From: Gammaproteobacteria bacterium HGW-Gammaproteobacteria-2
Lineage (GTDB): Bacteria > Pseudomonadota > Gammaproteobacteria > Xanthomonadales > Xanthomonadaceae
DNA: 64,000 bases
NCBI GenBank assembly: GCA_002840015.1
Contig: PGZE01000021.1
Location: 1-64,000 of the forward strand
Reading direction: 5' to 3'
The position numbers and the translations under genes were made by a program. The notes under the pieces are model-generated. The model saw nothing but the letters and a program-made list of their open reading frames with translations, was not told the DNA's origin and searched no databases. Shown piece after piece: positions 42,332-59,897 of this stretch (position 1 is the first letter of the stretch; every line of letters begins with the position of its first letter).

Positions 42332-42397
42332 TGTGGGAGCCGGCCTGCCGGCGAACAACCGTGCGACAGTTTCGCGCGCAAGGCGCGCTCCCACAAA
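42332..42397. repeat. REP-like palindrome pair, second copy
   Basis: TGTGGGAGCCGGCCTGCCGG to CGCGCTCCCACA with the same internal arms as the element at 39484-39548. Confidence 0.8.
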
Positions 42398-43889: not shown

Positions 43890-44576
43890 CTACGCAGCCG
43901 GCGTGACATGCTGTCTAAAATATCGATGATGTTGCAGATAATCGATCGACTGATCCGCCAACAAATAGGCCTTCCCACCGCGTCTTCCGACCTGCAGACA
44001 GGGTAGCTCATGCAATGCATCTGGGTTGTTGGTGTAATGCACGGGGTACTTGTCGCGAAACGGCGCAAGAAGTTTGGCATCACATTTCACGCCTTTGTAC
44101 TCGTCATAACCGAACCGTGGATGGCCGATATCAAAGTCGTCAACACAAATAATGCCACGCTTGATCAGGCTTAACTCACGCTCCAGCGGCCACGGTTCGT
44201 ACCAGTGCGCATCAAGGAAAAAAAGCGGGCAACGAAAAACATCTGCGTACTTGGCGATCATTTCGGGGGAGTCTGCCTTTAGCACGGTGCAGTGCGGCAG
44301 GTGGCCGACGCGACGACGGGTGATTTCAACATATTTGTCAACCACATCACAGGTAATAATCGATAGGTGCGGGTAGACGCGCGCGAAATATTCGGTGCTA
44401 TCACCGCAATTACTGCCTGTCTCGATGATGGCATCACACTGGTAACGCTGGATGATGTAATCAAACTCCAGTGCGGTGGTGATGTCGAACCCCAGCGGGC
44501 CGCCGCCATCACTCAACTCCGATGCGCCGATGCGGGCGATACGGTAAAACACGTCATATAACTTCTCAGTAGACAC
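43890..44576 (-). CDS. SAM-dependent methyltransferase-like protein
   Basis: A 228-residue protein starting with GTG at 44576, which has GGAG six bases upstream; an upstream ATG at 44789 would add 71 unlikely residues. It has a methyltransferase-like order: CDAIIETGSNCGDSTEYFARVYP (motif I), LSIITCDVVDKYVEITRRRV, CTVLKADSPEMIAKY, CPLFFLDAHWYEPWPLERELSLI and GIICVDDFDIG. The DAHW and CVDDF blocks suggest binding of an acidic cluster or metal near the active site. It resembles enzymes acting on sugars or natural products, but no specific family is assigned. Converges with mgtE. Confidence 0.6.
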   Translation of the reverse strand: MSTEKLYDVFYRIARIGASELSDGGGPLGFDITTALEFDYIIQRYQCDAIIETGSNCGDSTEYFARVYPHLSIITCDVVDKYVEITRRRVGHLPHCTVLKADSPEMIAKYADVFRCPLFFLDAHWYEPWPLERELSLIKRGIICVDDFDIGHPRFGYDEYKGVKCDAKLLAPFRDKYPVHYTNNPDALHELPCLQVGRRGGKAYLLADQSIDYLQHHRYFRQHVTPAA

Positions 44577-44735
44577 AGGGCTCTCCGCCAGGCATGCCGC
44601 CCGGTTGTTGGCGTGCGTAACGCACCGAATAAACAGTCCATAGACTATCGCAGGGTTCTGCTTTCTTGCAGTGCCGCTTGCATTGTTTGTTCTGATTAGC
44701 GCCCCTGTATGCTGTCCTGGGGCGTTCATTGTGCG

Positions 44736-44766
44736 AAAAAAAGGGCCGCAGCTTGCGCTGCGGCCC
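44736..44766 (-). terminator. Strong rho-independent terminator of the TonB receptor gene
   Basis: On the minus strand GGGCCGCAG, loop CGCAAG, CTGCGGCCC is followed by TTTTTTT. It begins about 44 bases after the receptor stop codon. Confidence 0.9.
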
Positions 44767-44809
44767 TCAATTATCGCTCTATCAAGCAACGATCCCGTTT
44801 AGCTGAGGA

Positions 44810-47692
44810 TCAGAAGTCTTGACGGTACTGCACAAACCAGAACGCACCATTGGGCAGATCGTAAGCCGCATCGAAGCTGCCCGCAAACGCATTGGCCACA
44901 ATTGGCGGCTCGCGGCTGAATACGTTCCGAGCACCCACCGAGATCTTGGCCTTCCACGGCGCATTCCAGCCTACCGTCACGTCATGATAGGTGGTTGAAG
45001 CAACGTTGTGTGTACCGGTCTCTTCGTTGGAGCAGATGTTGATCGTTGCATCCTGGAAGCAATCTTCCGTCAACTTTGACGTAAACCGCATCGTCCAGCT
45101 GGCGTCAAAGTCGCCCTTGCTCCAGGTGGTGACGAAGTTCGAGCGCCACTCCCAATTCGGGCTGCCTGTGTAAAGGCCAACAAACTGAACCGGTGCCGAC
45201 TGGAAGTCGTTCTGGGTGGTCAGATCGCTAACCCAAGTGGTCTCTGACGAGAAGGAGAAGCGACCCCAGTTCTCGGTTTCGAACCGGTAGTTCAGGTTGA
45301 AGTCGATACCATCGGTCTTGAACGCGCTCGCATTGAATGAACCAACACGCAGATCGATAATCTCGCCGGTGACTGGCGCGCGGGTAATGAACGAGCAGAA
45401 GCTGTCAATACCGTTGCCATTGTCGCCGGTGATGCACTGGTTTACGATGAAGTTGGCGCTGAACTGGGTAAGCGCATCGGCGATGCGGATACGCCAGTAG
45501 TCCACCGACAGATCGAAGCCGGGCAACCAACTCGGGTTGTAGACGAGGCCGATATTGACGTTCTCGCCGCCTTCCGGAGTCAGATCCGGGTTACCGCCAA
45601 ACAGCGAGCGCTGCTGGGAGTTGACCTGGTTCCAACCGCCTTGCGGCACACCCAACGCAACGCAACGCGCTTGCTGATCCGGGGTCAAGGCATCAAAGAA
45701 TACTGCACCCTGACGGCATGGGTCAGACACACCGGGGAAGCCTTCACCACCGCCCGAGAACAGATCGCTTGCCGACGGCGCACGGAAGCTCTCGCCCCAT
45801 GACGCACGAATCAACAGGTCGTCGATCGGCTTCCAACGCAGCGCGACGCTGTAATTGGTGGTGCTACCCAGATCGGTGCTGACGAAGCCACTGCCGACGT
45901 CACCTTCCGACTCGAAGCTGGTGTTGCGCGCAGCCAAGGTGATGTTGAGCTCCTTGGCCAACATCATGTCGCTGAGCAACGGCAATGACAACTCGCCGTA
46001 GAACTCCTCAATGATGGTTTGGCCTCTGGTCGGTTCAGTGAAATTGGTTGATGAACCACCACCAACGATCAACGAGTCGGGCTGGTCGAAAGTACTGTCT
46101 TTGCGATACTCGTAGCCGGCAGCGAACTGCACCATGCCACCGGGCAGGCTGAACAAGTCACCCGACAGGTTGGCATAGTAGTTGTTGGTGGTGTTGCCCT
46201 GGAACGAATTGGCGGTGTGGGTGACGAAATCCAGCATCCGCTGCTGCTCTGCCGCACTGATCACGCCCGCGCCAACACCCAGATCCGGGCCACCAAACAG
46301 GTTGAACGGAGTACAGCCAGCGACCACTGCACCCGGAGTACCGCAGCGCAGCACGCCATTGCCATCACGGAATGACGGGCCCAGAGCCTGGCGCAGGTTG
46401 AACAGATTGACCAGGTTATCCTGCTGCTGATCGTTCTGGGTGTCGTTGTAGGACAAGCCCACATCCCAGTTGAAACCACGATCACCGATGTTGAACGCGC
46501 CTTCCAAGCCCACGTTTGTGGCGTAGGTATCGACGTCGGCCCGGTTGAAGCGACCACCGGCGGCAACCATGCGGAAGCCACCCGATTCGATCTGCGCGCC
46601 AAACGGGTTGAACACGTTGTTGGCGGTGATCGGAATCGTCCACTGCGGGCCGCTGGCACCATTGGTGTTCAGCGTCAGCGGAACCTCGGCAATCTGGTTG
46701 TCCGAGGTGCGCTTGGTGTAGTTGAACTTGGCCACCGCACGGATGTTGTCGGTGATATCGTGCGTCGCCGATGCGAACAGGTTTTGGGTGTCGCCCGGCA
46801 GTTGCAGGAAGTTGACTGGCGAGAAGTTGAAGCGATCCGCCGCAGTGAACGGGCGGAAATCCGACACGCTGGTACCCGGGCGGCCGGGGATCAGGGATTG
46901 GTTGCCCAAGCCCGGAACCACGAAACGGCCACCGGCCGGCGAAGCGGAACCGCAAAAGCCAGAGTTGGCTGCAGTCGGGGGATCGATACAGCCGATCACC
47001 GGCACCTTGGTGCGCTCACGTGAGCCTTGGCTGATTCCGTCACGGCCCTGGAAGCCGATGTTCATGACGACATTGGTGCGCTCGCTGCTGGCACCCCAGG
47101 TGAGGTTGTACTGCTCCTGTGCACCGTCGCCTTCTTCAGTTTCGCCATACTGGGCGCGGAACTGCATGCCTTCGAAGTTGCGACGGGTGATGATGTTGAT
47201 CACGCCAGCGATGGCATCCGAACCGTAGATCGCCGATGCGCCGTCTTTCAGCACTTCGACGCGCTCGACAATGGCCGTCGGGATGCTGGTCAGGTCAACC
47301 GTGCCGTTTACGTCGGTTGCCCAACGATGGCCGTCCACCAACACCAGTGTGCGCGACGAGCCGAGGCCACGCAGCGAAATTGATTGCGTACCGTCATTGC
47401 CATTGGTCTGGGTTGACACCGTGCTCAAGCCACCGCCATCCGACGAGGTCAGACGGTCAAGGACGTCACGGATATCCGTCAGGCCGGTGCGTTCGATGTC
47501 TGCACGGGTCAGCAGGGTAACCGGGCTGGTGGTTTCGGTGTCAACGCGCTTGATGCGCGAACCGGTTACTTCAACGCGATCCAGCGTCTTGGCTTGATCC
47601 TGGGCGAAGGCATTGCCTCCCACCGCAGCAGCCGAGGCGCCAGCAAACAACGCGAAACGGATCGCGTTGGGCAGATGCTTCATATTAGTCAT
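44810..47692 (-). CDS. TonB-dependent outer-membrane receptor
   Basis: A 960-residue protein. Signal peptide about 1-26 (LFAGASAAAVGGNAFA). TonB box-like LDRVEVTGSRIKRV, plug domain (TSPVTLLTRADIERTGLTDIRDVLDRLTSS, SISLRGLGSSRTLVLVDGHRW, VDLTSIPTAIVERVEVLKDGASAIYGSDAIAGVINIIT), then a beta barrel. The barrel ends with aromatic GAFWFVQYRQDF. The family imports large substrates (peptides, siderophores, glycans) in a TonB-energised way; this sequence alone does not tell which. The ATG at 47692 has GGAGAG six bases upstream. It lies downstream of a TPR-sulfotransferase gene, separated by about 390 bases with its own likely promoter. Confidence 0.95.
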   Translation of the reverse strand: MTNMKHLPNAIRFALFAGASAAAVGGNAFAQDQAKTLDRVEVTGSRIKRVDTETTSPVTLLTRADIERTGLTDIRDVLDRLTSSDGGGLSTVSTQTNGNDGTQSISLRGLGSSRTLVLVDGHRWATDVNGTVDLTSIPTAIVERVEVLKDGASAIYGSDAIAGVINIITRRNFEGMQFRAQYGETEEGDGAQEQYNLTWGASSERTNVVMNIGFQGRDGISQGSRERTKVPVIGCIDPPTAANSGFCGSASPAGGRFVVPGLGNQSLIPGRPGTSVSDFRPFTAADRFNFSPVNFLQLPGDTQNLFASATHDITDNIRAVAKFNYTKRTSDNQIAEVPLTLNTNGASGPQWTIPITANNVFNPFGAQIESGGFRMVAAGGRFNRADVDTYATNVGLEGAFNIGDRGFNWDVGLSYNDTQNDQQQDNLVNLFNLRQALGPSFRDGNGVLRCGTPGAVVAGCTPFNLFGGPDLGVGAGVISAAEQQRMLDFVTHTANSFQGNTTNNYYANLSGDLFSLPGGMVQFAAGYEYRKDSTFDQPDSLIVGGGSSTNFTEPTRGQTIIEEFYGELSLPLLSDMMLAKELNITLAARNTSFESEGDVGSGFVSTDLGSTTNYSVALRWKPIDDLLIRASWGESFRAPSASDLFSGGGEGFPGVSDPCRQGAVFFDALTPDQQARCVALGVPQGGWNQVNSQQRSLFGGNPDLTPEGGENVNIGLVYNPSWLPGFDLSVDYWRIRIADALTQFSANFIVNQCITGDNGNGIDSFCSFITRAPVTGEIIDLRVGSFNASAFKTDGIDFNLNYRFETENWGRFSFSSETTWVSDLTTQNDFQSAPVQFVGLYTGSPNWEWRSNFVTTWSKGDFDASWTMRFTSKLTEDCFQDATINICSNEETGTHNVASTTYHDVTVGWNAPWKAKISVGARNVFSREPPIVANAFAGSFDAAYDLPNGAFWFVQYRQDF

Positions 47693-48084
47693 TACGTTCT
47701 CTCCAACGTTCAGAGTGGAAACTCTCGATTTCGGGACAAGCCGTGAGGCAGTGGAGCGATTGCTCCAGACAGCCCGGCCCGGCGAGGATAACGCAATTTT
47801 TACGGTCATGGGAAGTGCTTTATCCGCGCCCCGGCTGTCAAACCGTCTGATCAGGTGATTGCAGGCACATCGCCATCGCACGAAATGCGCGACTTTTCTG
47901 CCATAAAATCCTTCGGGATCAATCGTCTACTGGTCGCATCGTGCCCGCTGTGGCGCGCGACGGGGAACGCTTTGATCGTTTCAGCAAACTTGCCGGCACC
48001 GGCTGGGGCAGTAGAAGCCCCAATGTCCGGTCACAGCCCAGCGACACACACTGCTGCTTGCATGCTCGAAGCCAGCGCGACCGA
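47693..48084. other. Regulatory gap upstream of the TonB receptor
   Basis: About 390 bases without a credible gene on either strand. It should contain the promoter for the receptor. I see no convincing operator or riboswitch. Confidence 0.5.
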
Positions 48085-50250
48085 TCACGCAGCGGAATGG
48101 GTAGCGCCGCCATCACCAACCACAGCGCGTTGCGCGGTTGCCAATCGTGGGTCAAGTGAATAACCCAGCATCTGAGAAGCATCGGCCAGCACCGGCAGCA
48201 GCGGTCTCAAGGCATCGGCGTAGTGAGCCCACCGACCCAAGCCGCGCGTGTTGATAGCCTCGGCAACCTGATGGTAGCTGTTGGTTCGAATACGGTCTCG
48301 CTGCAAAAGCGCATCGCGATGGTCAAGCATGGCTGCATCAAAGTCGAGGTTTAGCCAGGCACATAAGGCCTGCATCGTCTGTCGCGGGTCGGCAAGCAGT
48401 GTTTCGTAACGCAGCATGTGATGCGGCACAGCAAGTTGTTGCACCGTCAATTGCCATAACTCAAGCACAGCCCGGTAGATGTTTGCGCTATCGCTGAGAG
48501 TGTAGAAGTGGCAGTAGATTTCCGACAGGGTGTAGTTCTGCATGAAGTTGCTGAGCACCACGTCGGCTGGATGCCGAGCTGCAAACACGATGCGCGCCCC
48601 AGGAAACAAACGATGGATCAATGCGACATGTGGGGTGCGCATTGGCATCTTGTCGACAATCAACCGCCCCGTGCCGGCGGGTACGGCGTGGCGCCGCAAG
48701 GCATCACGATAAATCCTCCGGCAATCTTCACGCTCACTGCGTCCCATCGCTTCGAGCGCGCCAGGGTAGCCTTGCTTCGTCTGCCCCAGGTAATTCCAGA
48801 CGTATTCAATCGTCGGGCGCTCTTCCAGAGATATAACCTGCGGGTGCGCAGCAAGCATGACGTCAAGCAATGTCGTCCCGGAACGGGCAAAACCCAGCAA
48901 GAAACACAGGTCGGCGCCCCGATCCTCGTCTTGATCCGATGCTGGCATGGGCGCCCCGCGCCGTACCCAATCGCTTATCGCCGCAATTTGTTTGGGGAAG
49001 TAGCCATGATCCAACCCGCGCGCACGCGGGCTACTGGCCGCCATGGCGTTACCCTTGGCAAAGGCAGCCAGGGCAGCGCCGTAATCACCTGTTCTATCCA
49101 GCACTTGCCCCAGCTCAAACTGGTATAACTGGCACCGCTGCGGCGGGAGCTTTGCAGTATCAACTTTGCGCAACAGCGCCAGTGCACCGGGCTCGTCACC
49201 GCGACGCCGTGCGAGGCGCGCAGCCTCAAGCTCCAGGATGGGGTGATTGGCGCAAGCAACATTGGCTTGCGTCAACGCTGCTTCGGCTTCTTCGATGCGA
49301 TTGCTTTGTTCGAGCGAGGCGATCAGGTCACCCCAGGTTTGGGCGTCGCTCGTATCCACTGCCAATGCTTTGCGAAACCAACCCACAGCGAGGTCAGTAT
49401 CCGAATCTTCTTCGCCAAGCAAGCCGAGAAAACGCATCGCCTGTATGTTTTTGGGGTCAGCGGCGTGTGCGGCCTCATAGCGCGCACGCGCGGTACTTGT
49501 ATCGCGCATGGCATGGGCGCACATTCCGGCATGGATTAGTGCCTGGATATCGGCCGGCGCGTCTTCAAGCACCGCGTTGAAGCATGCCGACGCACGCTCC
49601 AGCTGGCCTTGCGCAAACAAGATTGTGCCGAGCCCCGATTGCGCAGCGCGATAACGTGGCGCCAACGCCAGCGCAGCCGCAAAAGCCCGTTCAGCGAGTT
49701 CCGCCTGCCCTTCAGCCCGCAAGACATGGCCGAGATTGCATTGCGCCTGCGCGTAACTCGGATCGTTGCTCAGTGCCGCCGCAAACGCTGCCTTGGCCTC
49801 TTCCACTCTACCGAGGTTGAACAGGGCACGGCCGCGATGGTTATGGGCGCTCGCTTCGTTTGGCACCAACGCCAGCGCTCGCTCGCAGGCATCGAGTGCG
49901 CCAAGGAAATCACGGGAATAATGTTTGCGGATTGCCAGATCAATCCACGCCGACGCCGACGCAGTTTGTTGGCGCATGACGATCAGACTCATTGCTTGCT
50001 CATCAAGGCGTTCGCCGATCAAATATTCACGCAACGCATCGCCACAGGCGCGATCCTGCAAGCAGCGGCCATGCAGCAGCTTGGTGGCATCCAGTGGATA
50101 ACCTGCTTGAAAATGCGTTTTCGCCAACTCAAGCGCAACATCATGTCGCTCAGGGTTTGCCTCCAGCACTGCCAGCAAAGCATCAATTCGCGCCTCGTTG
50201 TTTGCACGGGAAATGCTGCTTGAATCGGCGGGCGCAGCAGTGGTCGACAT
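48085..50250 (-). CDS. TPR-repeat sulfotransferase
   Basis: A 721-residue protein. Residues about 20-430 are tetratricopeptide repeats (pattern GRALFNLGRVEEAKAAFAAAL, CNLGHVLRAEGQAELAERAF). Residues about 448-690 are a sulfotransferase: PAPS 5'-phosphosulfate loop LLGFARSGTTLLDVMLAAHP (452-471), the nearby acidic SLEERPTIE as in tyrosylprotein sulfotransferases, and the 3'-phosphate motif FAARHPADVVLSNF (Arg559, Ser567). This suggests transfer of sulfate to a protein, peptide or glycan held by the repeats. The substrate is unknown. The protein has no clear signal peptide, so it probably acts in the cytoplasm. Neighbouring 2OG oxygenases and the TonB receptor suggest a joint pathway. Confidence 0.82.
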   Translation of the reverse strand: MSTTAAPADSSSISRANNEARIDALLAVLEANPERHDVALELAKTHFQAGYPLDATKLLHGRCLQDRACGDALREYLIGERLDEQAMSLIVMRQQTASASAWIDLAIRKHYSRDFLGALDACERALALVPNEASAHNHRGRALFNLGRVEEAKAAFAAALSNDPSYAQAQCNLGHVLRAEGQAELAERAFAAALALAPRYRAAQSGLGTILFAQGQLERASACFNAVLEDAPADIQALIHAGMCAHAMRDTSTARARYEAAHAADPKNIQAMRFLGLLGEEDSDTDLAVGWFRKALAVDTSDAQTWGDLIASLEQSNRIEEAEAALTQANVACANHPILELEAARLARRRGDEPGALALLRKVDTAKLPPQRCQLYQFELGQVLDRTGDYGAALAAFAKGNAMAASSPRARGLDHGYFPKQIAAISDWVRRGAPMPASDQDEDRGADLCFLLGFARSGTTLLDVMLAAHPQVISLEERPTIEYVWNYLGQTKQGYPGALEAMGRSEREDCRRIYRDALRRHAVPAGTGRLIVDKMPMRTPHVALIHRLFPGARIVFAARHPADVVLSNFMQNYTLSEIYCHFYTLSDSANIYRAVLELWQLTVQQLAVPHHMLRYETLLADPRQTMQALCAWLNLDFDAAMLDHRDALLQRDRIRTNSYHQVAEAINTRGLGRWAHYADALRPLLPVLADASQMLGYSLDPRLATAQRAVVGDGGATHSAA

Positions 50251-50301
50251 CGCAAACTCCTCTCAAATGACATGGCGCACAAGCGCCACAATGCGAACAA
50301 A

Positions 50302-50913
50302 TCAGGCGCGAACGGGCACCCGCTCCCATTTGATCGCAAAGGTATAACGCACCTCGAAACAGGTGCGGCTTGGCGTTCTGCCAGCATGTGTGATGGCGCC
50401 ATCAAAGAGCACCAATCGCCCGGGCCGCGGGGGCACAGCGAGAGCAACACCGGTGTCGCCATCATAAAACAACGTCTCTCCACCCCAGTCGGGCTCCCAG
50501 CGCTCGCACAAATACCATAGGCTGGTCAGCTCATTGCTGCCAGGTGCGCCATCGGTGTGAGTAAGTTGTACGTCACCAAAGCTCACTGCGTTGGTATAAG
50601 CCCGATAGGGTCGATAAGGCAGGCCCTCAGCAAAATCCTGGATAGTGCGCGCAGTCAGCGTGTAAATCGGGTCACGAAGCAAACCCTGGATCGGCAATTC
50701 ACTGACGAGATGACGAAAGCTCGGATTGACGTCATCGCGCGCCCGTTCGGTGCGTGTGTAAGAGGCGCCATCAAGTGCCTTTACGTAGGATACGACTTCA
50801 ATCGGCAGATCATCGATGATACGCAAACGCCTGCCACCGACTGAGGCATTGGTGACTCTCGCACGACCATAATCAACCAATACGGGAGATTTGACGGGAA
50901 TTTCTATCGCCAT
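50302..50913 (-). CDS. 2OG-Fe(II) oxygenase (prolyl-hydroxylase-like)
   Basis: A 203-residue protein with a double-stranded beta-helix core: iron ligands His119 and Asp121 in QLTHTDGAPG, distal His176 in DGAITHAGRTPS, and 2-oxoglutarate-binding Arg183 (SRTCFEVRYTFA). The strand LTSLWYLCERWEPDWGGETLFY between them is typical of prolyl 4-hydroxylase-like enzymes. It should hydroxylate a protein or peptide side chain. The start at 50913 (MAIEIPVKS) was chosen. It lies 51 bases upstream of the TPR-sulfotransferase and is probably in its operon. Confidence 0.85.
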   Translation of the reverse strand: MAIEIPVKSPVLVDYGRARVTNASVGGRRLRIIDDLPIEVVSYVKALDGASYTRTERARDDVNPSFRHLVSELPIQGLLRDPIYTLTARTIQDFAEGLPYRPYRAYTNAVSFGDVQLTHTDGAPGSNELTSLWYLCERWEPDWGGETLFYDGDTGVALAVPPRPGRLVLFDGAITHAGRTPSRTCFEVRYTFAIKWERVPVRA

Positions 50914-51111
50914 GGTTGATACCTGTCCAAAGTGGCAATGGGTCATTGCCTGCGTGATTTACTCGCGATGCTGGGCATAGTGCTCCCGAAGACGCGACCC
51001 GACTCAACACTGAGCCAGGTAAACAGCCGGTGAATACTTCCCGGCCGTTGCTCATGCCGCAACGCGGCTTGCTCGGCAACACCATGGCATGGTCACGTTT
51101 CGATAGCCGCA

Positions 51112-53166
51112 TCATTCACAGGCAAATCCCAAGGCATCTGCCAATGCCGCCAGTCCTTCAAATGCCGGTGCCAAAACTTCACCGTATACGCGCCAATGTC
51201 CCGGCGCAAAACCGGACCGTACACGGCCGCTGGCATAGGCCAACGAACGTGCAGCGGTTGCCTCCTCACGAAACTCAATGGCGGCAAAGGCACTGATTCT
51301 TGCCAATGCGCCGCTGCGATCAGATGCCACGTCGTGACTACTCAGCAGCAACAGCCGCTCGGGGCAAGCTTGGCGGAAAGCAACAAGCGGCTGCAATACA
51401 TGGTGCAACCACAATGCGGCTTGCTCCACGTCAACCACGCCGTATTGCTGTGGGCAGCCAAACGCGAGCCAGTTGAGAAGCATGTCGCGCGGATCGGCGA
51501 GCAGCGCTACCAATTTTGAATGGGTGAACTGCGCCTGCAATGCTGCGTCCCAATGCGGCACCCAATCAATAATGCGGTTTGGATCATAACCCAGCGCCTC
51601 TACACCCGCCTTCCATGCAGCATACGATCCTGACGCGACCTCATTCGACGGCACCTGTTTGAAGGGATCGATGCCATCAAGGCGCGGCGCATCGGAAAAT
51701 CGATCCGTCATCACCACATGCGACGCGGTAAAAGCCATTGGCGTGATCAACAGTTCGGCTGGAGTTCCCGGCAAGGTCCAAACCAGGGTAACCGGTGACT
51801 GCCCGGCATCAATGGCTTCGGCCGGCGCGAGCCGCGAGCTTGGCAGCGGTAACGCCGAAGTATGCGTCCACATGTCACGCCACGCCTGCAGCGCCTGCTT
51901 GTGCTTGCCACAGGCATCCAGTGCCAGGCCGTGCCAATGCAGCACGCTGCGCCGCGCATCGGGTTGCGTCGCCTGCTCCAGCATCCGGGTGGTTCGCTTG
52001 ATCGCTTGATCGGGGCTATGTCGCAACTCGGCACGCAGCTTTACCAATTGAGCGGCAGTTTGATCCGGGTTACTTTGCAATGCCTGATCCGCATAATGCT
52101 CGGCCTGTTCGGCCTGGCCACGCAATTCAACCAATTGCGCCATTGCCTCCAGTGCCGCCGCGCTGTAGGGCTTGGCTGCAAACCAACGCTCGGTGATACC
52201 TGCAGCTACGTCAAGGTCAAACTCCTCAATGCCAAGACGCAACGCCCACAGATCATCGCGATCAGGCTGGTTGGACAAACGCTGCTCCAGCAAGTCAACG
52301 GCATCTTGCTGCCGCCCCAGCGCCACATAGGCCTGCACCGCCTTCGTGATGGCGAGCGGGTGATCTGGCACCAGATACAACAGCGCCGTATATGCTGCCG
52401 CTGCTTCTTCGGCGCGACCTGCCTGCATCAGTGCTTCGCCGCGCAAGTTGAGTGCCACCGGATCGGTGGGTACCTGCTCCACCAGAATATCCAGTTGCTC
52501 CAATGCCTGCTTGGCATGGCCCTGTTCGGTCAGCGCTCGCAGCAGCGCCCAGCGCAAGCCGCGATTGCGCGGCTGCATTTGCACGGCGGTTTGCAATGAT
52601 CGCTCGGCAAAAGCGTGATAACCCTGCGCCAGAAAACACAGGCCCAGGCTGGCGTGCGCGAGTGCGCTGGACGGGGCTTTGCGCACCGCCGCTGAATACA
52701 AACCTGAGGCCTCATCCAGATTGCCGCGGCTTTGCGCTTCGATGCCACGCAAAATCAGCACATCTGCGGCTTCGTCGTCGATTCGCTCGGCGCGAATAAT
52801 GTGCTGATGCGCATCGGCAAAGTCGCCGCGCGAGATTGCCAGATGCGCCAGGCTGATGTAAGCAGCAAATGCGTTAGGGTCGTTGTGAATCACCCCGCGC
52901 AAGGTTGCCTCGGCAGCATCGATGCCACTGCTGCGCGCCTGGATCGAACCCTTGGTGACATGAAACACGGTATTGTCGGGTGCCAGCACTATGGCCTGTT
53001 CGACGCTCGCCAGAGCCTGGTCAAGACGGCCCAGCGCGCCATGGCCCACCGCCAACAGATGATGGGCTTCAGCCATCTCCGGATAGCGATTCAATAGCTC
53101 GGTTGCCTGCGCAACCGCCGTTTCAAATTCACCGTGCGCCAACGATTGCAGTACCTGTTGCAACAT
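51112..53166 (-). CDS. TPR-repeat protein with a degenerate sulfotransferase-like C-terminus
   Basis: A 684-residue protein. Residues 1-430 are TPR repeats (HHLLAVGHGALGRLDQALASVEQAIVLAP, LALDACGKHKQALQAWR). The C-terminal third keeps the order of a sulfotransferase (LVWTLPGTPAELLITPMAF, then LVALLADPRDMLLNWLAFG, GYGVVD-like, and EVLAPAF), but the SGTT phosphosulfate loop is replaced by PGTPAEL and the conserved RxP becomes ADPRD. It is probably catalytically inactive and may serve as a scaffold. I cannot confirm the fold from sequence alone. It lies in tandem with the active TPR-sulfotransferase. Confidence 0.7.
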   Translation of the reverse strand: MLQQVLQSLAHGEFETAVAQATELLNRYPEMAEAHHLLAVGHGALGRLDQALASVEQAIVLAPDNTVFHVTKGSIQARSSGIDAAEATLRGVIHNDPNAFAAYISLAHLAISRGDFADAHQHIIRAERIDDEAADVLILRGIEAQSRGNLDEASGLYSAAVRKAPSSALAHASLGLCFLAQGYHAFAERSLQTAVQMQPRNRGLRWALLRALTEQGHAKQALEQLDILVEQVPTDPVALNLRGEALMQAGRAEEAAAAYTALLYLVPDHPLAITKAVQAYVALGRQQDAVDLLEQRLSNQPDRDDLWALRLGIEEFDLDVAAGITERWFAAKPYSAAALEAMAQLVELRGQAEQAEHYADQALQSNPDQTAAQLVKLRAELRHSPDQAIKRTTRMLEQATQPDARRSVLHWHGLALDACGKHKQALQAWRDMWTHTSALPLPSSRLAPAEAIDAGQSPVTLVWTLPGTPAELLITPMAFTASHVVMTDRFSDAPRLDGIDPFKQVPSNEVASGSYAAWKAGVEALGYDPNRIIDWVPHWDAALQAQFTHSKLVALLADPRDMLLNWLAFGCPQQYGVVDVEQAALWLHHVLQPLVAFRQACPERLLLLSSHDVASDRSGALARISAFAAIEFREEATAARSLAYASGRVRSGFAPGHWRVYGEVLAPAFEGLAALADALGFACE

Positions 53167-53339
53167 GAGTTCAACCGCCTGTATTCAAGGTGTGAGCGAG
53201 CCCAAGTCAGCGCTGGCAATGCGATGGCACCAAAGGCACCTCTCGCGGCAGGCCAACACGGGCAAACGAGTATTGTACCCGCAGGCAACGCCTGCGGCCC
53301 AATCTGGAATGGTCAGCCCGACCCCGGTCGTTCAGGTCA

Positions 53340-54047
53340 TTATTTGGCGCGCAAAAACCAGCCGGTGATCGCCAAGCGCGGCTGGCCGGCCCATGGCGCC
53401 ACCAGCGATACGCTGTGTGGCTGCGGCACGTGGAATACCGAAAACGAGTTCCAGCGCGGCAGCAAGGTTTCGCAAATGCCGCCGGATGCATCGTGGAACT
53501 GCAGTAATCCGCCCCAATCGGGATTCCAGTCCTTGCTCAGGTTGATCACGAATGCCGCCGCGCGATTTTCCTCTCGATTCTCGTCTTCGTGCCGGGTAAG
53601 AAACTGCCCCGGAAGGTAGCGTGTGGCCTGGGCGTTGGCGGCAACAATACCGGGCACGCCGATAAACCAGCTGGCGAAATCCAGCACTTCTGCGGAGTTC
53701 AGGAAGTCGAGCACGACATGCAGCATCAGTCCTGGATCACGCCCCTCCTTTTGCGCCCGCACCAGCATGTAGCTGTCATATAAAAACTGGAACTCGCTAC
53801 CGGCGCGCGCGTACGCGAGACGATGTACCTCCTGCCGCTGTGCTTCGGACATGCTTGCATACGCGTCGGCAGCGGTGGTCTTGGGCTTGCCGTCGATGCG
53901 CTCGGCAAGCGTCCAGCGCACCTCCTCACGCAGACATTGATGAATTCGCTCGGCAGCAGCGGCCTGCAAAAACCCCGGCACCTGCACCCGGCCGTGGCGG
54001 GCCAGGTGCTGGCGATATGATTCAAAATCGACATCGTTACTGATCAT
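53340..54047 (-). CDS. 2OG-Fe(II) oxygenase with an N-terminal helical region
   Basis: A 235-residue protein: helical N-terminus to about 140, then the iron-binding core with His153 and Asp155 (TRHEDENREENRAAAFVINLSKDWNPDWGGLLQFHD), distal His211 (VPQPHSVSLV) and Arg224 (QPRLAITGWF). It resembles the prolyl-4-hydroxylase-like 2OG family but is distinct from the other three oxygenases here. The start at 54047 removes 41 unconserved residues from the long open frame. Close to the TPR protein with 173 bases between. Confidence 0.85.
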   Translation of the reverse strand: MISNDVDFESYRQHLARHGRVQVPGFLQAAAAERIHQCLREEVRWTLAERIDGKPKTTAADAYASMSEAQRQEVHRLAYARAGSEFQFLYDSYMLVRAQKEGRDPGLMLHVVLDFLNSAEVLDFASWFIGVPGIVAANAQATRYLPGQFLTRHEDENREENRAAAFVINLSKDWNPDWGGLLQFHDASGGICETLLPRWNSFSVFHVPQPHSVSLVAPWAGQPRLAITGWFLRAK

Positions 54048-54170
54048 GCGGTGTGCCGCGGAAGTTGCTGAGTGACGTATCGTGCTACGGCGCGACGCCA
54101 CACTGCAACTCTCATCATGTCGCCACGCCGCAGGCTGCTTCCTTGCAACTGCAACAAAGCAAGGCCGCAA

Positions 54171-55031
54171 TCATTGGCACGCCTCGTGGGTTTGTTTTGC
54201 CACTACAGGCTGCCAATGCTCATGCTTGATCACGTTTCCACCCAAATGAAAGCGTGCGGCAATTTGGTAGGTGGTATCGGGTTGCACGTCGATCTCGATG
54301 GTCTTGTAGTGATCCTCGCGACGGAACTGCCGTTGCCGTTGCTGCACGGCGTTGAAGCGAACCGGCTCGATGGTTTCAGCCACGGTGAGCACTCGTTTGC
54401 CGGGTTTGACGCGCCAACTGGGCGTGTTGAGTAGCGGGGTCTTGCCATCGATGTAAATGATCCTGGCTGGATACAAGTCATCGCTGCGCGATGCGGTAAA
54501 AAAGACACTGATACGCCCGCAATTGCCGGTGGAGGCGCTGCCGCTGATCGTCATTACGTAGGCCGGCACCACCAAGGCATCGGCCCTTCCATTCAAAGCC
54601 AGCCGCTGGTCAGCGCGCCCCACGTCCAACGCCAGCTCACCGCGCTCGCGCACCATTGCGGCACGAATCACATCAAGCGGTTGTTGCACTTGCGAAATCG
54701 CATCACCATTGATCGCAAGCAAGCGATCACCGACCTGTAAACCCATTCGTTCCGCAGGCCCGCCCGGCGTCAGCGCGAGCACTGCCGGGCCAGTTGCAGG
54801 CGCCGGATCAATCACTGCGCCCAACTCGTAACGAATGCTCTCAGGTGTTGTGATCTGCAGCGGCGCTTCATCGGGGCCGGGTAACACACCAAGGTCTGCA
54901 GCGCGCAGCAACGCCAGCTCAACCTCGCCTGCCACGGCTGTCTGCGCGGTCTCTTGCGCCTGTGCAACGCCACCCGCCAGCACGCAGGCAATCATCATCG
55001 CCATCATTTTCATGTCAGTTCTCTTTTTCAT
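54171..55031 (-). CDS. Secreted PDZ-domain protein of unknown function
   Basis: A 286-residue protein with an N-terminal signal (MKMMAMMIACVLAGGVAQA). A PDZ domain is visible at about 75-145 (ALTPGGPAERMGLQVGDRLLAINGDAI, VIRAAMVRERGELALDV). The C-terminal part (IYIDGKTPLLNTPSWRVKPGKRVLTVAETI, YKTIEIDVQPDTTYQIAARF) is beta-rich and has no identified function. Third gene of a sigma/anti-sigma operon, so it may sense an envelope signal. The start at 55031 leaves 11 bases from the anti-sigma stop. Confidence 0.7.
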   Translation of the reverse strand: MKKRTDMKMMAMMIACVLAGGVAQAQETAQTAVAGEVELALLRAADLGVLPGPDEAPLQITTPESIRYELGAVIDPAPATGPAVLALTPGGPAERMGLQVGDRLLAINGDAISQVQQPLDVIRAAMVRERGELALDVGRADQRLALNGRADALVVPAYVMTISGSASTGNCGRISVFFTASRSDDLYPARIIYIDGKTPLLNTPSWRVKPGKRVLTVAETIEPVRFNAVQQRQRQFRREDHYKTIEIDVQPDTTYQIAARFHLGGNVIKHEHWQPVVAKQTHEACQ

Positions 55032-55042
55032 GTCATCACTCC

Positions 55043-55471
55043 TCACATCCGCACCGGAGCCGCCGGTATCGGTGAATCCAATTGCATCACCACTGCCTCG
55101 CGCTCAGCCCATAGAACGGCCACGTGACCTTGCTCGGCGCCGCGTTGCAACGCCATCTGCAACTCACGATCAAGTGCCCGCAATTGCGCTTGCGCAGGCG
55201 CGTTGGCGTATGCCGGCGGTGTTACCTCAGGCGCAATGACCCGATTATCGCGTGCGGCAAACAGCGCCACTGCCGACAATCCCGCAGCCACCATCACCCC
55301 TGCCCACGTTGCAACTCGCGGTGTACGCCAGCGCTGTGAGTTTGCCCACGCCACTGACAACACACGTCGCTGCAAAGCAGCCGGCGGCTCGGCATCAGGC
55401 AGTCCGTGCAGGTATGCACTTACCTGCTGCCGCTCTGCCGCAGTGGGCAACTTGTCAAAATCAGTGGTCAT
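55043..55471 (-). CDS. Probable anti-sigma factor
   Basis: A 142-residue protein. A cytosolic N-terminal part (DKLPTAAERQQVSAYLHGLPDAEPPAALQRRVLS) is followed by one membrane segment (VATWAGVMVAAGLSAVALFAA) and an external C-terminal region (QLRALDRELQMALQRGAEQGHVAVLW). Position directly behind a sigma factor with an ATGA overlap and this topology are the reasons for the call; no zinc-binding anti-sigma motif is seen. Confidence 0.65.
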   Translation of the reverse strand: MTTDFDKLPTAAERQQVSAYLHGLPDAEPPAALQRRVLSVAWANSQRWRTPRVATWAGVMVAAGLSAVALFAARDNRVIAPEVTPPAYANAPAQAQLRALDRELQMALQRGAEQGHVAVLWAEREAVVMQLDSPIPAAPVRM

Positions 55472-56004
55472 GACTCTTCCTCCAACCAGGTGTGCAAGCG
55501 CGCGATACTGCGCGCGAGTAAGGTTTTCGACCAACTTGCGGTTTTACCAAACATGGCTGCAATTTCCGGATGTGAATATCCTTCCATTTCATGCAGCAAC
55601 ACGACGCTGCGAGCATCCGGCGCAAGCCTGCGCAAAAGGCCCACGGCATCCAGAGATGTGCCTGGTTCGATGGCGACCGCCGCCATGGTGTCGATCACTT
55701 CGGCCGCAACCTGAGGCCGTTGTTTACGCATGTGGTCGATCACGGCATTGGCCACCAGCCGCTTGAGCCAGGCCGCCACCGGGGCGTCACCACGAAACCC
55801 AGGCAATGCTCGGGCAGCCCGTAAAAATGCTTCCTGCACCATGTCTTCTGCTGTGGCAGGGTGCGCGGTCATGCGCAATGCCAGCGTGTAAAGCGTACGT
55901 GCGTGGCGTTGATACAGCCCCGCCAATGCCTCGGACTCGCCAGCTTTGGCGCGAGCAACCAATGCCGTATCGTCGAGTTCCATAGTCACGGTTATTGTGT
56001 TCAT
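55468..56004 (-). CDS. ECF-type RNA polymerase sigma factor
   Basis: A 178-residue group-IV sigma factor. Region 2 is visible as DDTALVARAKAGESEALAGLYQRHARTLYTLALRM with DMVQEAFLRAARAL, region 4 as LRRLAPDARSVVLLHEMEGYSHPEIAAMFGKTASWSKTLLARSIARLHTWL. It directs polymerase to a dedicated set of promoters, probably under control of the next two genes. The ATG at 56004 (MNTITVTMELDD) is one of two plausible starts; an ATG at 56034 would add ten residues. Confidence 0.92.
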   Translation of the reverse strand: MNTITVTMELDDTALVARAKAGESEALAGLYQRHARTLYTLALRMTAHPATAEDMVQEAFLRAARALPGFRGDAPVAAWLKRLVANAVIDHMRKQRPQVAAEVIDTMAAVAIEPGTSLDAVGLLRRLAPDARSVVLLHEMEGYSHPEIAAMFGKTASWSKTLLARSIARLHTWLEEES

Positions 56005-56143
56005 TACCCTGACTAGACGGATCAAGGTGCGCATCCGTCGCAGCGCAACGCATCATCCGATGAGTCAAACCGCTTGATGGCAGCAACCTGGATGGGGCAT
56101 CGTACGCTCAGCATGCCGGCGATGCCGTGTGGAGAATACCGCG

Positions 56144-56800
56144 ATGACACCCATTTCCACCTTGTTTGCAGTCCCATGCGTTTCGGTAATACACCCCGAT
56201 CCGCACGAGCTCAATCGACAATTACGCGAACTGTTCATTGCGCGCGAAGGCGAGGGCCAGCGCTATGCCAACCCCAATCCACTGGTGCTGCGCAATAATG
56301 CATTGTTTGAGAGCAATTTTGACCTGTTTTCCTGGCCAGAACCCTGCGTACAGGAGCTCAAGTCCTATTGCTGGCAACACTTGCAATCGATCATCGCGCA
56401 ACTCAATCGCTATGATGAAATCACCATGGCACGCTTGCGTATCCATGCCGATTGCTGGTATCACGTCACCCGAAAGGGCGGTTACTTCACCACCCACAAT
56501 CATCCGATGGCCAGTTGGTCTGGCGTTTATTGCGTAGCATCAGGGGCGGATGTCAGCGAACCGGCCGACAGTGGCATCCTGTCGTTTCCCAACCCCAACA
56601 CCGCGGCCTCGATGTTCAATGATGCCGGCAACTCGGCAATGGCGCCGCCCTATTCGTTTGGCGCGATGAACTTCAAACTCAAGCCCGGACAGTTGGTGCT
56701 GTTCCCATCCTGGGTGCTGCATGAAGTGAAACCGTACCTTGGGCCACGCGAGCGGATCACGGTTGCCTTCAATACCTGGTTCAGCCTCGCTGAGAAATGA
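56144..56800 (+). CDS. Putative 2OG-Fe(II) oxygenase (PF13759-like)
   Basis: A 218-residue protein. Candidate iron ligands His118 and His120 lie in YFTTHNHPMASWSGVYCV, with distal His193 in PSWVLHEVKPYLGPRERITVAFNTWF and Arg204 for 2-oxoglutarate. The H-x-H rather than H-x-D pair matches this small family (TIGR02466-type). No other domains. It is transcribed oppositely to the sigma factor operon, which has its start 140 bases away. ATG at 56144 follows GGAG at a distance of nine bases. Confidence 0.82.
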   Translation: MTPISTLFAVPCVSVIHPDPHELNRQLRELFIAREGEGQRYANPNPLVLRNNALFESNFDLFSWPEPCVQELKSYCWQHLQSIIAQLNRYDEITMARLRIHADCWYHVTRKGGYFTTHNHPMASWSGVYCVASGADVSEPADSGILSFPNPNTAASMFNDAGNSAMAPPYSFGAMNFKLKPGQLVLFPSWVLHEVKPYLGPRERITVAFNTWFSLAEK

Positions 56801-56827
56801 ATGCCACGCCCTGGCAGCTGAGCGGAT

Positions 56828-58006
56828 TCAGAACGCGCGAATCGGCCCTTGCCGGATCCACGAAGTCGCCAGCCATTTTTCGCCGAAACCTACCGGCTCG
56901 CCGGCGTGCAAGCTGTTCGGATCGGGTTGACCCTCAGGGCCCAGGTTGGCGAACACCACCGCGCTGCCCTGCCGGGGCTGAACACGCACACCCACTTTGG
57001 GGAAAACCGTCGCGCCACCTTGCATGCCCTCGTTGAGGTAGCAACACACGGTAGTCACCCGTTGCCGACCAGGGCCGGCAAGGCCCGGGTCGTTGGGCGA
57101 GAGGTAATCGCGGTGCGGCCGGTATTGTTCGCCAGGGGCATAATGCAACACCACCAGCGGCTCGAAATACGATAGCGGCGGATTGCCCGCAGCTGCTGCG
57201 AAACGCAACTGGATCAGCCGCAGGCTGACATCTTCCAGCGACGGAACAAAATTGGCATCGCGGCTGGTGCGTAAACCAGCGCTCAGCGGCTCACCTGTCA
57301 ACGGGTCTACCACCAGTGAGCGCTTCAAGTGCCGTGAGCCACAATAACGCAGCAAACGGCACTCCTCGACGTTGAGCAAATTATCCACCCGGCAGATTGC
57401 CGGGCTTTCGCACAACAGTGTTGCTGTGCCCATAGTCGGCGTCAGCGACAAAGGCAATCGTGCCCAGTCTGGCTCAGCGCGTGCAATGCCCGGCGTCGAT
57501 GCGTCGTCACTATGTCTGCCTTTAGTTCCGGTGACGCTTTCCACCGCGATGCCTGCTCGGACGGCCAGCTTTACCAATTGCTGGGCGCGCACGGGGTCGC
57601 GGCCGGCACCGTACCCTTGCTGCAAACGGTGCGCCAGTAACGCGGCCGCAACGGCATCACCCTGTTCTACCGCACGTTCCAGGCACCACACCGCAGCAGC
57701 TTGCGCGCCGTCGAGCTCGCTGCGGCCAAATGCCACTGCCGCGCTGCGCAACGCAGGACTGAAGCCTCGTTGCGCACTGCGTACCAGCCAGCGATGGATC
57801 GATGCCGCATCAACAGGCAACAGCACATTGCCCAGTGCAATCATTGCCAGCGCATAATCGGCATCGGGTGCGCCACCCAATGCATCGGCCTCGCGCAACA
57901 GATCCAAAGCGGAGCATGGCTCTGCGGGCACCCCAATGCCAAACAGCAGCTCGATGCCACGTCTGGCAAGTCCGCCGGCACGCGATGCAGGGTCAGGAAT
58001 GGACAT
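56828..58006 (-). CDS. Prolyl 4-hydroxylase-like 2OG-Fe(II) oxygenase with N-terminal Sel1-like repeats
   Basis: A 392-residue protein. Residues about 1-160 are helical Sel1/TPR-like repeats (ARRGIELLFGIG, SIHRWLVRSAQRGFSPALRSAAVAFG, WCLERAVEQGDAVAAALLAHRLQQGYGAG). From about 200 it is a P4H domain: VLHYAPGEQYRPHRDYLS with iron ligands His298 and Asp300, distal His367 in SLHAGEPV, and Lys377 (GEKWLATSWIRQ) for 2-oxoglutarate, as in prolyl 4-hydroxylases. It ends with a terminal IRQGPI motif. The fourth oxygenase of the region. It converges with the 56144 gene with 27 bases between stops. Confidence 0.88.
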   Translation of the reverse strand: MSIPDPASRAGGLARRGIELLFGIGVPAEPCSALDLLREADALGGAPDADYALAMIALGNVLLPVDAASIHRWLVRSAQRGFSPALRSAAVAFGRSELDGAQAAAVWCLERAVEQGDAVAAALLAHRLQQGYGAGRDPVRAQQLVKLAVRAGIAVESVTGTKGRHSDDASTPGIARAEPDWARLPLSLTPTMGTATLLCESPAICRVDNLLNVEECRLLRYCGSRHLKRSLVVDPLTGEPLSAGLRTSRDANFVPSLEDVSLRLIQLRFAAAAGNPPLSYFEPLVVLHYAPGEQYRPHRDYLSPNDPGLAGPGRQRVTTVCCYLNEGMQGGATVFPKVGVRVQPRQGSAVVFANLGPEGQPDPNSLHAGEPVGFGEKWLATSWIRQGPIRAF

Positions 58007-58145: not shown

Positions 58146-59897
58146 TCAGCCACCCAACGCCGCCTCCACCCGATCCAGCTCCGCCGTCAGTGCGGCTGGC
58201 AGGCGCTCGCCGAAGGTTTGCAGGTAGTCGCGCACCGCAGCGATCTCGGCTTTCCAGGCGTCACGATCCACCGCCAGCAGCTGCCCGAGTTGATCGGGGT
58301 TGCAATCGAGCCCGTCGCAGTTGAGGTCTTGCGCATGCGGCAGCAGGCCGATCGGCGTATCCACTGCGTCGGCATCACCCTGGATACGACGAATCATCCA
58401 CTCCAGCACGCGCAGGTTGTCGCCGAAGCCCGGCCACAGGAATTGGCCATCAGCATCCTTGCGGAACCAGTTGACGTGGAAAATCTTCGGCAACTTGGTC
58501 TCGGGCTGCTCGAAGCTGAGCCAATGCGCGAAGTAGTCGGCGAAGTTGTAGCCGCAGAACGGCTTCATTGCCATCGGGTCGCGGCGCACCACGCCCACCG
58601 CGCCGGTGGCAGCGGCGGTGGTCTCCGACGCCATCGCTGCACCCAGCAGCACGCCATGGCACCAGTCGCGTGCTTCAAACACCAGTGGCACCAGCGATTC
58701 GCGGCGGCCACCGAACACGATTGCCGAGATCGGCACGCCGTGTGCATCTTCCATGCGCGGCGAATAGCTGGGGCATTGCCGGGCACTGACGGTGAAGCGT
58801 GAGTTGGGATGCGCCGCCGCACCGTTGCCCGGATCAAAGGGCCGGCCACGCCAGTCGAATGCCGGTACCCGTTTGTCCAGCCCTTCCCACCACGGCTGGT
58901 TGTCGTCGGTGAGCGCGACATTGGTGAAGATGGCATCGTGATGCAACATCTCGACGGCATTGCGATTGGTCTTGTTGCCGGTGCCGGGCGCGACGCCAAA
59001 AAACCCGGCTTCGGGATTGATCGCCCACAGTCGGCCATCGGCGCCGGGCTGCATCCAGCAAATGTCATCGCCCAGGGTCCACACCTTCCAGCCGGCTTCG
59101 CGGTAGGCCTGCGGCGGAATCAGCATGGCCAGATTGGTTTTGCCGCAGGCGGAGGGAAACGCGGCGGCAATATAATGCGTTTCGCCGGCCGGGGTCTGGA
59201 TGCCGACGATCAGCATGTGCTCGGCCAACCAGCCCTCGTTACGCGCCTGCCACGAGGCAATACGCAGGGCATGGCATTTTTTGCCGAGCAGGGCGTTGCC
59301 GCCGTAGCCCGAACCGTAGCTCTTGATCGTGAGTTCTTCGGGGAAGTGCATGATGTAGCGGCGCTCGGGGTCGAGCTCGCCGATCGAGTGCAGGCCTTTG
59401 ACAAAATGCCCGTCGCGCTCGATCCGCGCCAGCGCCGCAGCGCCCATGCGGGTCATGATCCGCATGTTGGCCACCACATACGGGCTGTCGGTGATTTCGA
59501 CCCCGCAGCGTGCCAGCGGTGAGTCGATCGGGCCCATGCAGTACGGCACCACATACAGGGTGCGGCCACGCATGCAGCCGGCAAACAACGCATCGATGCG
59601 GGTATGGCCTTCATCCGGGGCCAGCCACAAGTTGTTGGGGCCAGCGTCGTCGCGGTTTTCGGTGCAGATGAAAGTGAGGTGCTCGACCCTGGCCACATCA
59701 TCCGGGTGTGAACGATGCAGGTAGCAATCCGGGTGGGTTTGCGGGTTCAGCGGCAGCAGGTCACCGTTATCGAGCATGCCGGCCGTGAGCGCGCGGCGTT
59801 CGTCATCGGAGCCGTCGCACCAGTGAATGTGCGCGGGTTGGGTGAGGCGGGCAACGGTTTCGACCCAGTGGGTCAGTGCAGGCAACGAACTGGGCAT
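58146..59897 (-). CDS. pckG: Phosphoenolpyruvate carboxykinase (GTP)
   Basis: Interconverts oxaloacetate and PEP with GTP/GDP for gluconeogenesis. The 583 residues contain the PEPCK P-loop AAFPSACGKTNLAM (245-258) with the reactive Cys251 typical of the GTP form, the metal-binding DICWM region, EAGFFGVAPGT, TNVALTDD, and the guanine-binding segment with FCGYNFADYFAHW. The family length is 590-620, so it is close to full size. The start at 59897 lies at the only ATG before the first conserved block. Confidence 0.95.
   Translation of the reverse strand: MPSSLPALTHWVETVARLTQPAHIHWCDGSDDERRALTAGMLDNGDLLPLNPQTHPDCYLHRSHPDDVARVEHLTFICTENRDDAGPNNLWLAPDEGHTRIDALFAGCMRGRTLYVVPYCMGPIDSPLARCGVEITDSPYVVANMRIMTRMGAAALARIERDGHFVKGLHSIGELDPERRYIMHFPEELTIKSYGSGYGGNALLGKKCHALRIASWQARNEGWLAEHMLIVGIQTPAGETHYIAAAFPSACGKTNLAMLIPPQAYREAGWKVWTLGDDICWMQPGADGRLWAINPEAGFFGVAPGTGNKTNRNAVEMLHHDAIFTNVALTDDNQPWWEGLDKRVPAFDWRGRPFDPGNGAAAHPNSRFTVSARQCPSYSPRMEDAHGVPISAIVFGGRRESLVPLVFEARDWCHGVLLGAAMASETTAAATGAVGVVRRDPMAMKPFCGYNFADYFAHWLSFEQPETKLPKIFHVNWFRKDADGQFLWPGFGDNLRVLEWMIRRIQGDADAVDTPIGLLPHAQDLNCDGLDCNPDQLGQLLAVDRDAWKAEIAAVRDYLQTFGERLPAALTAELDRVEAALGG

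Follow-up and report, generated by a model that had tools for sequence, protein, structure and literature searches.

Why should a gene for a TonB-dependent outer-membrane receptor lie among genes for sulfotransferases and hydroxylases? The question is raised by a 64,000-nucleotide stretch of DNA (the window), part of a 3.3-Mb metagenome-assembled genome (MAG), in which the region from 43.9 to 58.0 kb carries such a group. The original prediction listed a TonB receptor, a sulfotransferase with tetratricopeptide repeats (TPR), a pseudo-sulfotransferase and four Fe(II)/2-oxoglutarate (2OG) oxygenases, here OxyA to OxyD, and these identities and coordinates hold. A methyltransferase-like gene and genes for a PDZ-domain protein, a protein of 163 amino acids (aa) and an extracytoplasmic function (ECF) sigma factor are also present (Table 1). 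The group is one allele of an exchangeable receptor-plus-modifier cassette situated between conserved genes. Such a cassette consists of a TonB-type receptor, at least one TPR-sulfotransferase and usually at least one Fe(II)/2OG oxygenase; some alleles add a methyltransferase, an XOO1806-type small barrel or an ECF sigma gene.

An exchangeable set of genes 3' of pckG

Homologues of OxyA in other genera were found beside the genes that flank the window's cassette (pckG, a TetR gene and an acyl-CoA dehydrogenase gene), and the surroundings of pckG were therefore surveyed. The gene was located in 46 of 60 relatives, 27 genomes of the family and 19 of other families. The family is Lysobacteraceae, a label that follows a Lysobacteraceae bacterium MAG record holding a copy of the TPR-sulfotransferase at 98% identity. 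In 21 of the 27 family genomes the 18 kb on the 3' side of pckG include a sulfotransferase (0.45 expected from the sulfotransferases per genome), and in none of the 27 do the 18 kb on the 5' side; PF13469 matches were listed down to about 103 bits, so that weaker sulfotransferases in both directions may have escaped, and some contigs stop less than 18 kb from pckG. In other families the 3' side has one in at least four of 19 genomes (G039, G043, G046 and G053). Seven family sites had been fetched for their sulfotransferase or OxyA gene. In the unbiased subset, 12 family sites fetched by pckG alone, 10 contain a sulfotransferase; the eight sites of other families in the same sample contain none (the stretch from G057 is short). 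The site 3' of pckG is family-wide: most of the pckG-bearing Lysobacteraceae genomes in the survey have a cassette there. For one member of the window's genus, G001, pckG was not found; there the TetR gene has a TonB receptor and a methyltransferase as neighbours (G001:C241, L248), and the mgtE edge adjoins a TPR-sulfotransferase on another contig (L048).

Of the 27 family sites, all but those of G002, G006, G020, G024, G025 and G028 were read as DNA, among them 19 of the 21 that bear a sulfotransferase. All of these 19 have a TonB-type receptor, 16 by profile and three (G010, G018 and G034) of another class, CarboxypepD_reg plus Plug, by Pfam. An oxygenase of the four profiles is present at 14 sites and an XOO1806-type small barrel at eight.

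The exchange itself is best seen within the window's genus. In G003 the flanks are close to those of the window (mgtE 94-98%, pckG 94% and TetR 92% identity, and 83% over 230 residues for the acyl-CoA dehydrogenase beyond TetR), while the receptor and TPR-sulfotransferase between them are about 26% identical by tblastn, or 33% and 30% by local alignment. The G003 set also has a second TPR-sulfotransferase, a TPR-PF13759 oxygenase and a methyltransferase. It resembles the sets of G033 and G014, which belong to other genera, with 57-61% identity for the receptor and 63-65% for the sulfotransferase among the three. Over 16 sites, median pairwise identity is 79% for phosphoenolpyruvate carboxykinase (PEPCK), 35% for the receptor and 36% for the sulfotransferase. 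Receptor similarity follows sulfotransferase similarity with r = 0.63 (0.62 controlling for PEPCK, p = 0.0002) and, over 12 sites, OxyC similarity with r = 0.90 (0.89 controlling for PEPCK). The GC content of the window is 0.58-0.60 at 44-56 kb and 0.61-0.65 in the remaining 4-kb blocks, in keeping with exchange.

The association of receptor and enzymes can also be followed without reference to pckG. Homologues of the TPR-sulfotransferase (E ≤ 1e-40) are present in 21 of the 60 relatives, the window's own genome included, at 26 loci in addition to that of the window. At 14 of these loci a TonB receptor is found no further than 1 kb away, and at 17 no further than 5 kb; by our estimate chance would place one within 1 kb in a few percent of places, and the own genome has 22 Plug-domain matches. 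Five of the 14 close pairs (L040, L044, L050, L056 and L063) belong to the pckG site, and at least eight (L038, L039, L041, L042, L047, L058, L060 and L062) are in a genome without pckG or on another contig. The view from the receptor is similar. Of its 18 nearest neighbourhoods, window excluded, 11 include a member of these sulfotransferase or oxygenase families no more than 8 kb away, compared with two around 19 distant receptors, hand-spaced lower in the ranking (Fisher one-sided p = 0.0016). When the near group is widened to 27 neighbourhoods, the counts are 12/27 and 2/19 (p = 0.014), and for oxygenases alone 9/27 and 2/19 (p = 0.073, not significant); contigs that were too short are scored absent throughout (L195, L203 and L204 among the near neighbourhoods, L227 among the distant ones). 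Mapped on the receptor tree, presence of a sulfotransferase requires seven changes, as against a mean of 22.8 and a minimum of 15 in 200 shuffles, in a non-random sample that includes receptors fetched for a nearby sulfotransferase. Raw open reading frames (ORFs) were used later for L043, L156, L158 and L159, which had no gene calls from the gene caller. The association is real, recurrent and more than chance. The prediction was to fall if receptor and enzymes did not co-occur across genomes; they do, a TonB gene lying within 1 kb of the TPR-sulfotransferase at more than half of the related loci. Neighbourhoods were compared within the order; a phylum sample, which gives presence only, has TPR-sulfotransferase matches in 19 of 398 genomes (E ≤ 1e-40). 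Among plasmids, seven Azospirillum records match the sulfotransferase domain, none over more than 80% of the query.

The enzymes and their neighbours

The closest solved relatives of the TPR-sulfotransferase catalytic domain are the tyrosine-protein sulfotransferases (TPSTs), which make up seven of its nine PDB matches (phmmer, E ≤ 0.1; best 5.2e-12, query residues 43-294). A TPST-like active site can be aligned in 46 rows (44 distinct sequences, that of the window entering twice): R456 is conserved in 45 rows, E477 in 44, K534, R559 and S567 in 45 each, and S658 in 44. The correspondence uses what we take to be the residue numbering of human TPST2. From the relation of its catalytic domain and these residues, the enzyme is classed as tyrosine-protein-sulfotransferase-like. 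Its predicted structure has a good TPR superhelix at about residues 130-370 and a predicted local distance difference test score (pLDDT) of about 30 in the sulfotransferase domain; the model of the methyltransferase-like protein is unusable.

The four oxygenases differ in their metal and 2OG ligands as had been proposed, and they are not duplicates. The sets are H130-x-D132/H187/R200 in OxyA (24 homologues aligned), H194-x-D196/H252/R265 in OxyB (nine), H123-x-H125/H198/R209 in OxyC (25) and H298-x-D300/H367/K377 in OxyD (29). Ligand assignment follows the motif, and the columns are conserved in at least 85% of the aligned homologues. The H-x-H of OxyC, conserved across its homologues, is a trait of that family rather than an oddity of the window gene. 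OxyD matches prolyl-4-hydroxylases (P4Hs) of the PDB at 1e-26 and Sel1 repeat proteins from 5e-6; by its H-x-D...H...K pattern and this similarity it is classed as P4H-like. OxyB has weaker matches, the solved protein 4iw3 at 1e-6 and OGFOD1 at 5e-5. OxyD and OxyA also occur as pairs in L151 (6009-7734), L152 (162-1893) and L155 (5759-7484), where the profile gave no TonB gene in the DNA read; the L151 pair adjoins SURF1 and COX15 genes. The two enzymes may work together elsewhere.

The pseudo-sulfotransferase likewise deserves its name. No Pfam sulfotransferase match is found in it at E ≤ 0.001, yet over 229 columns its C-terminal domain can be aligned with the sulfotransferase family (hhalign probability 98.8, E 7.5e-17). 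The loop for 3'-phosphoadenosine 5'-phosphosulfate (PAPS) and the catalytic lysine are lost: most of 30 family rows have PGS-V-E in place of RSGTT, and 28 of the 30 have Trp at the lysine site. The window protein has the loop TLPGTPAELL and the same Trp. Its TPR repeats match best an engineered TPR protein and then the protein O-GlcNAc transferase OGT. Of 299 genomes of the order, 87 have relatives (E ≤ 1e-25; loci L065-L093 among them), mostly full-length. As a core of the cassette this protein was rejected, since its relatives sit at other loci and no TonB gene was found by profile in 20 neighbourhoods (in L139 the gene caller missed the gene itself). Neighbours by Pfam include phospholipase-D-like, acyltransferase and BacA genes in L131 and a phosphatidylethanolamine-binding protein in L128; the copy in G003 adjoins an OxyB homologue (L247).

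Table 1. Genes of the cassette region and its two edges, in window coordinates
Feature	Position	Strand	Remarks
mgtE-like gene, other conserved edge	42934..43869	+	PF01769; seen in G001, G002, G003 of the genus
Methyltransferase-like (class-I S-adenosylmethionine, SAM)	43890..44789	-	Likely start near 44576; 5-homologue profile against SAM methyltransferases, best E 2.4e-6
TonB-dependent receptor	44810..47881	-	Plug + beta-barrel; PF00593 117.6 bits, PF07715 90.4 bits; likely start 47692
TPR-sulfotransferase	48085..50250	-	TPR + Sulfotransfer_3, PF13469 113 bits
OxyA, FlmC-like Fe(II)/2OG oxygenase	50302..50946	-	PF13640; NF052475 111 bits, under cut-off 240
TPR pseudo-sulfotransferase	51112..53166	-	TPR by Pfam; hhalign to sulfotransferase family
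OxyB, Fe(II)/2OG oxygenase	53340..54170	-	PF13661 82.6 bits; likely start near 54047
PDZ-domain protein	54171..55046	-	PF17820/PF00595; hydrophobic signal-like N-terminus
163-aa protein, one hydrophobic stretch	55043..55534	-	Anti-sigma-like by position only
ECF sigma factor	55468..56034	-	PF04542/PF08281
OxyC, PF13759-type 2OG oxygenase	56129..56800	+	PF13759 74.5 bits; TIGR02466 63.3 bits (cut-off 62.5)
OxyD, Sel1-like repeats + P4H-like domain	56828..58006	-	PDB matches
pckG (GTP-type PEPCK), conserved edge of variable site	58146..59897	-	PF00821 530 bits

By crude hydrophobicity the window enzymes have no clear signal peptide, OxyC having a mild N-terminal stretch, and one is indicated for the PDZ protein; the receptor N-terminus is signal-peptide-like. 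Homologues of the methyltransferase-like gene lie beside related receptors in G002, G047, G056 and G093, and one of the PDZ protein near a related receptor in L148. The 163-aa protein has no Pfam match. ECF sigma genes recur in sister cassettes. A trio of ECF sigma factor, small putative anti-sigma factor and exported-looking protein occupies the place of the window's ECF, 163-aa and PDZ genes in L142 (3286-5337) and L050 (14097-16052), with DUF4097 by Pfam in L142 only. A scan for Fur control, with what we take to be the 19-bp E. coli-type consensus (up to three mismatches), found no site in the window; sites in this family may differ. A 93-nt element resembling repetitive extragenic palindromes, capable of a strong hairpin, has four matches in the window (60609-60701, 25802-25894, 39483-39542 and 42332-42391) and many in genomes of the same genus.

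Possible substrates of the enzymes

TPSTs, P4Hs and TPR-aspartyl/asparaginyl hydroxylases act on proteins, and TPR repeats bind them. That TPST-like sulfotransferases, TPR repeats and P4H-type oxygenases occur together suggests protein substrates, since the enzymes resemble protein modifiers, OxyB less strongly than the other two kinds. The original prediction was of hydroxylation and sulfation of a peptide or surface protein. A surface protein stays a candidate, in line with the receptor-enzyme association and the character of the enzymes, whereas a peptide has lost ground: no intergenic ORF of 18-125 aa recurs inside cassettes within a type, the exceptions being a near-identical pair in the window and G002 and a few other matches that are outside cassettes or weak. 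A 64-aa ORF beside OxyA in L151 and L152 was rejected as a precursor because it has no family; the next genes in L151 are the SURF1 and COX15 genes already mentioned.

The receptor is then the first candidate. It is the sole non-enzyme at every sulfotransferase site read, no conserved peptide gene was found in the cassettes, and a receptor that strictly needs a cytoplasmic dioxygenase is known, CciT of Caulobacter with its partner CciO (accessible text of PMC12004947). It is proposed, tentatively and just short of calling it probable, that TPR-guided cytoplasmic enzymes of the exchangeable cassette modify the co-encoded receptor before export. Enzymes guided by TPR or Sel1 repeats would act on the unfolded receptor precursor, or on a small-barrel partner, ahead of Sec export. 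The sulfotransferase would use PAPS to sulfate tyrosine or some other hydroxyl group; the oxygenases would hydroxylate proline, aspartate or asparagine. The modified extracellular loops of the finished receptor could then set ligand binding or hide the receptor from phages and bacteriocins, and enzymes and receptor would travel together because they must match. A wider form of this proposal is more doubtful. In it the receptors would form exchangeable types, and every type would bring along a TPR-guided sulfotransferase and hydroxylases to write sulfotyrosine and hydroxylated residues into it before export; the same principle would explain the need of CciT for CciO.

The search for a modified position in the receptor compared 27 sulfotransferase-linked with 28 unlinked receptors, omitting L195, L203, L204, L227 and four long-branch receptors. 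A conserved sulfation site was rejected, as the only Tyr column to pass the threshold over all linked receptors, 490, has another residue in the window receptor. The clade of the window (six receptors) is marked by Tyr 795 and a second clade (eight) by two other Tyr columns; none marks both. A loop Pro (residue 716 counted from 47881, in FRAPS..DLF.GGEGFP.VSDPC) is enriched in sulfotransferase- or oxygenase-linked receptors and ranks fourth by phi (0.51) of 1862 column-residue tests, Gly columns scoring higher.

Several results weigh against modification of the receptor by its cassette. No Tyr column is common to both main linked receptor clades and rare elsewhere, and counts of Tyr in acidic context are alike (3.9 in linked and 4.1 in unlinked receptors). 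A test on independent pairs of the tree gives no significance for the enrichment of Pro 716, which is kept as a lead only. At nine of the 26 TPR-sulfotransferase loci the profile finds no TonB gene within 8 kb, and five of the 19 pckG sites read have no oxygenase by the four profiles. Six of the 27 family sites were scored without a sulfotransferase: G002 through a contig break, its cassette being that of the window; G016, where the contig ends 1.5 kb past pckG; G020, with one weaker match outside the listing; and G006, G011 and G024, where there is none among the matches listed. Linkage alone makes neighbouring genes co-vary, so the correlations among sites show block exchange, not need. Finally, the TPR-sulfotransferase weakly matches NoeE (41.7 bits, cut-off 500), a nodulation protein that we take to be a sugar sulfotransferase.

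Other readings of the cassette start from the same genes. An unlikely one has the enzymes make a self-produced ligand, perhaps a sulfated and hydroxylated small molecule or non-ribosomal peptide, which the receptor takes back up. Substrate synthesis is Model 1 for CciO in the accessible text of PMC12004947, and a ligand of this kind would fit the joint variation of receptor and enzymes; the Pfam scan of the window-cassette genes gave no biosynthetic core enzyme, however, the cassettes hold no conserved small precursor ORF, and the likeness of the enzymes to protein modifiers, with their TPR or Sel1 repeats, speaks against it.

Somewhat less likely still is another target, a different surface protein or a glycan, with the receptor as a mere neighbour under the same ECF sigma control. 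The recurrence of ECF genes, the NoeE match and a glycosyltransferase in the region read of G023 would agree with it, as would the small barrels of XOO1806 type that often adjoin the receptor, and yet the receptor is present at every sulfotransferase site read and the small barrel at fewer than half. These barrels offer an alternative substrate in their own right. Their C-terminal part is homologous to the final strands of the receptor, and they adjoin many of these receptors. Proteins of the family (NF052276) are about 300 aa long with signal-like N-termini and end in PYVRYxQDL or close variants, for example in L040 (5007-5924), L063 (13433-14284), L154 (9653-10639), L157 (4193-5182) and the own genome (G000:C1:21994-22980). 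The L040 copy is above the family cut-off and has no Pfam match, the own-genome copy is below it, and the literature search found no paper on XOO1806-family proteins.

Processing or detoxification of a ligand after import, proposed for PiuC/YbiX and CciO (accessible text of PMC12004943 and PMC12004947), has a lower probability again. A cytoplasmic enzyme would need an inner-membrane importer, of which Pfam found none in the window cassette, and several TPR-sulfotransferases in one cassette (three in G027) are hard to explain. Very improbable is a chromosomal hot spot where functionally unconnected envelope genes gather. High turnover and the exchange of whole blocks at a single site would suit it, but the same gene classes return with unrelated sequences, unrelated families refilling the same roles in a way that linkage does not explain, and the receptor-sulfotransferase pairing also occurs away from pckG.

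Comparison with known systems

Modification of the receptor by its own cassette, if shown, would be a new kind of system. The nearest precedent is CciT-CciO, by gene arrangement. In CciT-CciO, PiuA-PiuC and Fiu-YbiX a TonB receptor gene adjoins that of a cytoplasmic Fe(II)/2OG oxygenase in a pairing stable across genomes (accessible text of PMC12004947 and PMC12004943). Such pairs are widespread and matter for siderophore-antibiotic uptake. The window shares the arrangement, with its receptor gene near 2OG oxygenases that are predicted to be cytoplasmic. The CciT-CciO models in the accessible text of PMC12004947 act on ligand or inhibitor, none on the receptor. The window cassette, unlike CciT-CciO, adds TPR-sulfotransferases, several oxygenase families, a methyltransferase and a pseudo-enzyme, and sits at a fixed variable site. 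The cassette bears on the question of how an oxygenase in the cytoplasm can serve a receptor in the outer membrane.

Each class of enzyme also has relatives in other settings. TPST1/2 share aligned and conserved catalytic residues with the window sulfotransferase, which differs from them in being bacterial, apparently cytoplasmic and fused to TPR. The P4Hs have their likeness in OxyD and the TPR-aspartyl/asparaginyl hydroxylases in a cassette protein of G033 (TPR plus PF05118), but the window enzymes sit beside a receptor and a sulfotransferase. In Xanthomonas, RaxST-RaxX provides a bacterial protein sulfotransferase, as far as the available text on it goes. RaxST is presumably of the same broad family as the window enzyme; unlike RaxST-RaxX, the cassettes have no small peptide precursor detected, that of the window has no export genes, and the partner is a TonB receptor. 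The cassette is also unlike FecI-FecR, in that the window receptor consists only of Plug and barrel, with no STN domain, and neither FecR nor any other Pfam family matches the 163-aa protein.

If the receptor is indeed the substrate, tyrosine sulfation and protein hydroxylation would be a regular part of bacterial surface variation, and the cassette a receptor-maturation system comparable to serotype switching, altering receptor binding and its use by phages and bacteriocins. An exchangeable site with matched sets allows a direct mix-and-match test of receptor and enzymes. The literature search, with most subscription journals outside it, found no paper about a receptor-sulfotransferase-oxygenase cassette. 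The pairing of receptor and oxygenase is already known from CciT-CciO and its like; the sulfotransferase-containing, exchangeable form at a fixed site is the part of the variant that appears to be new.

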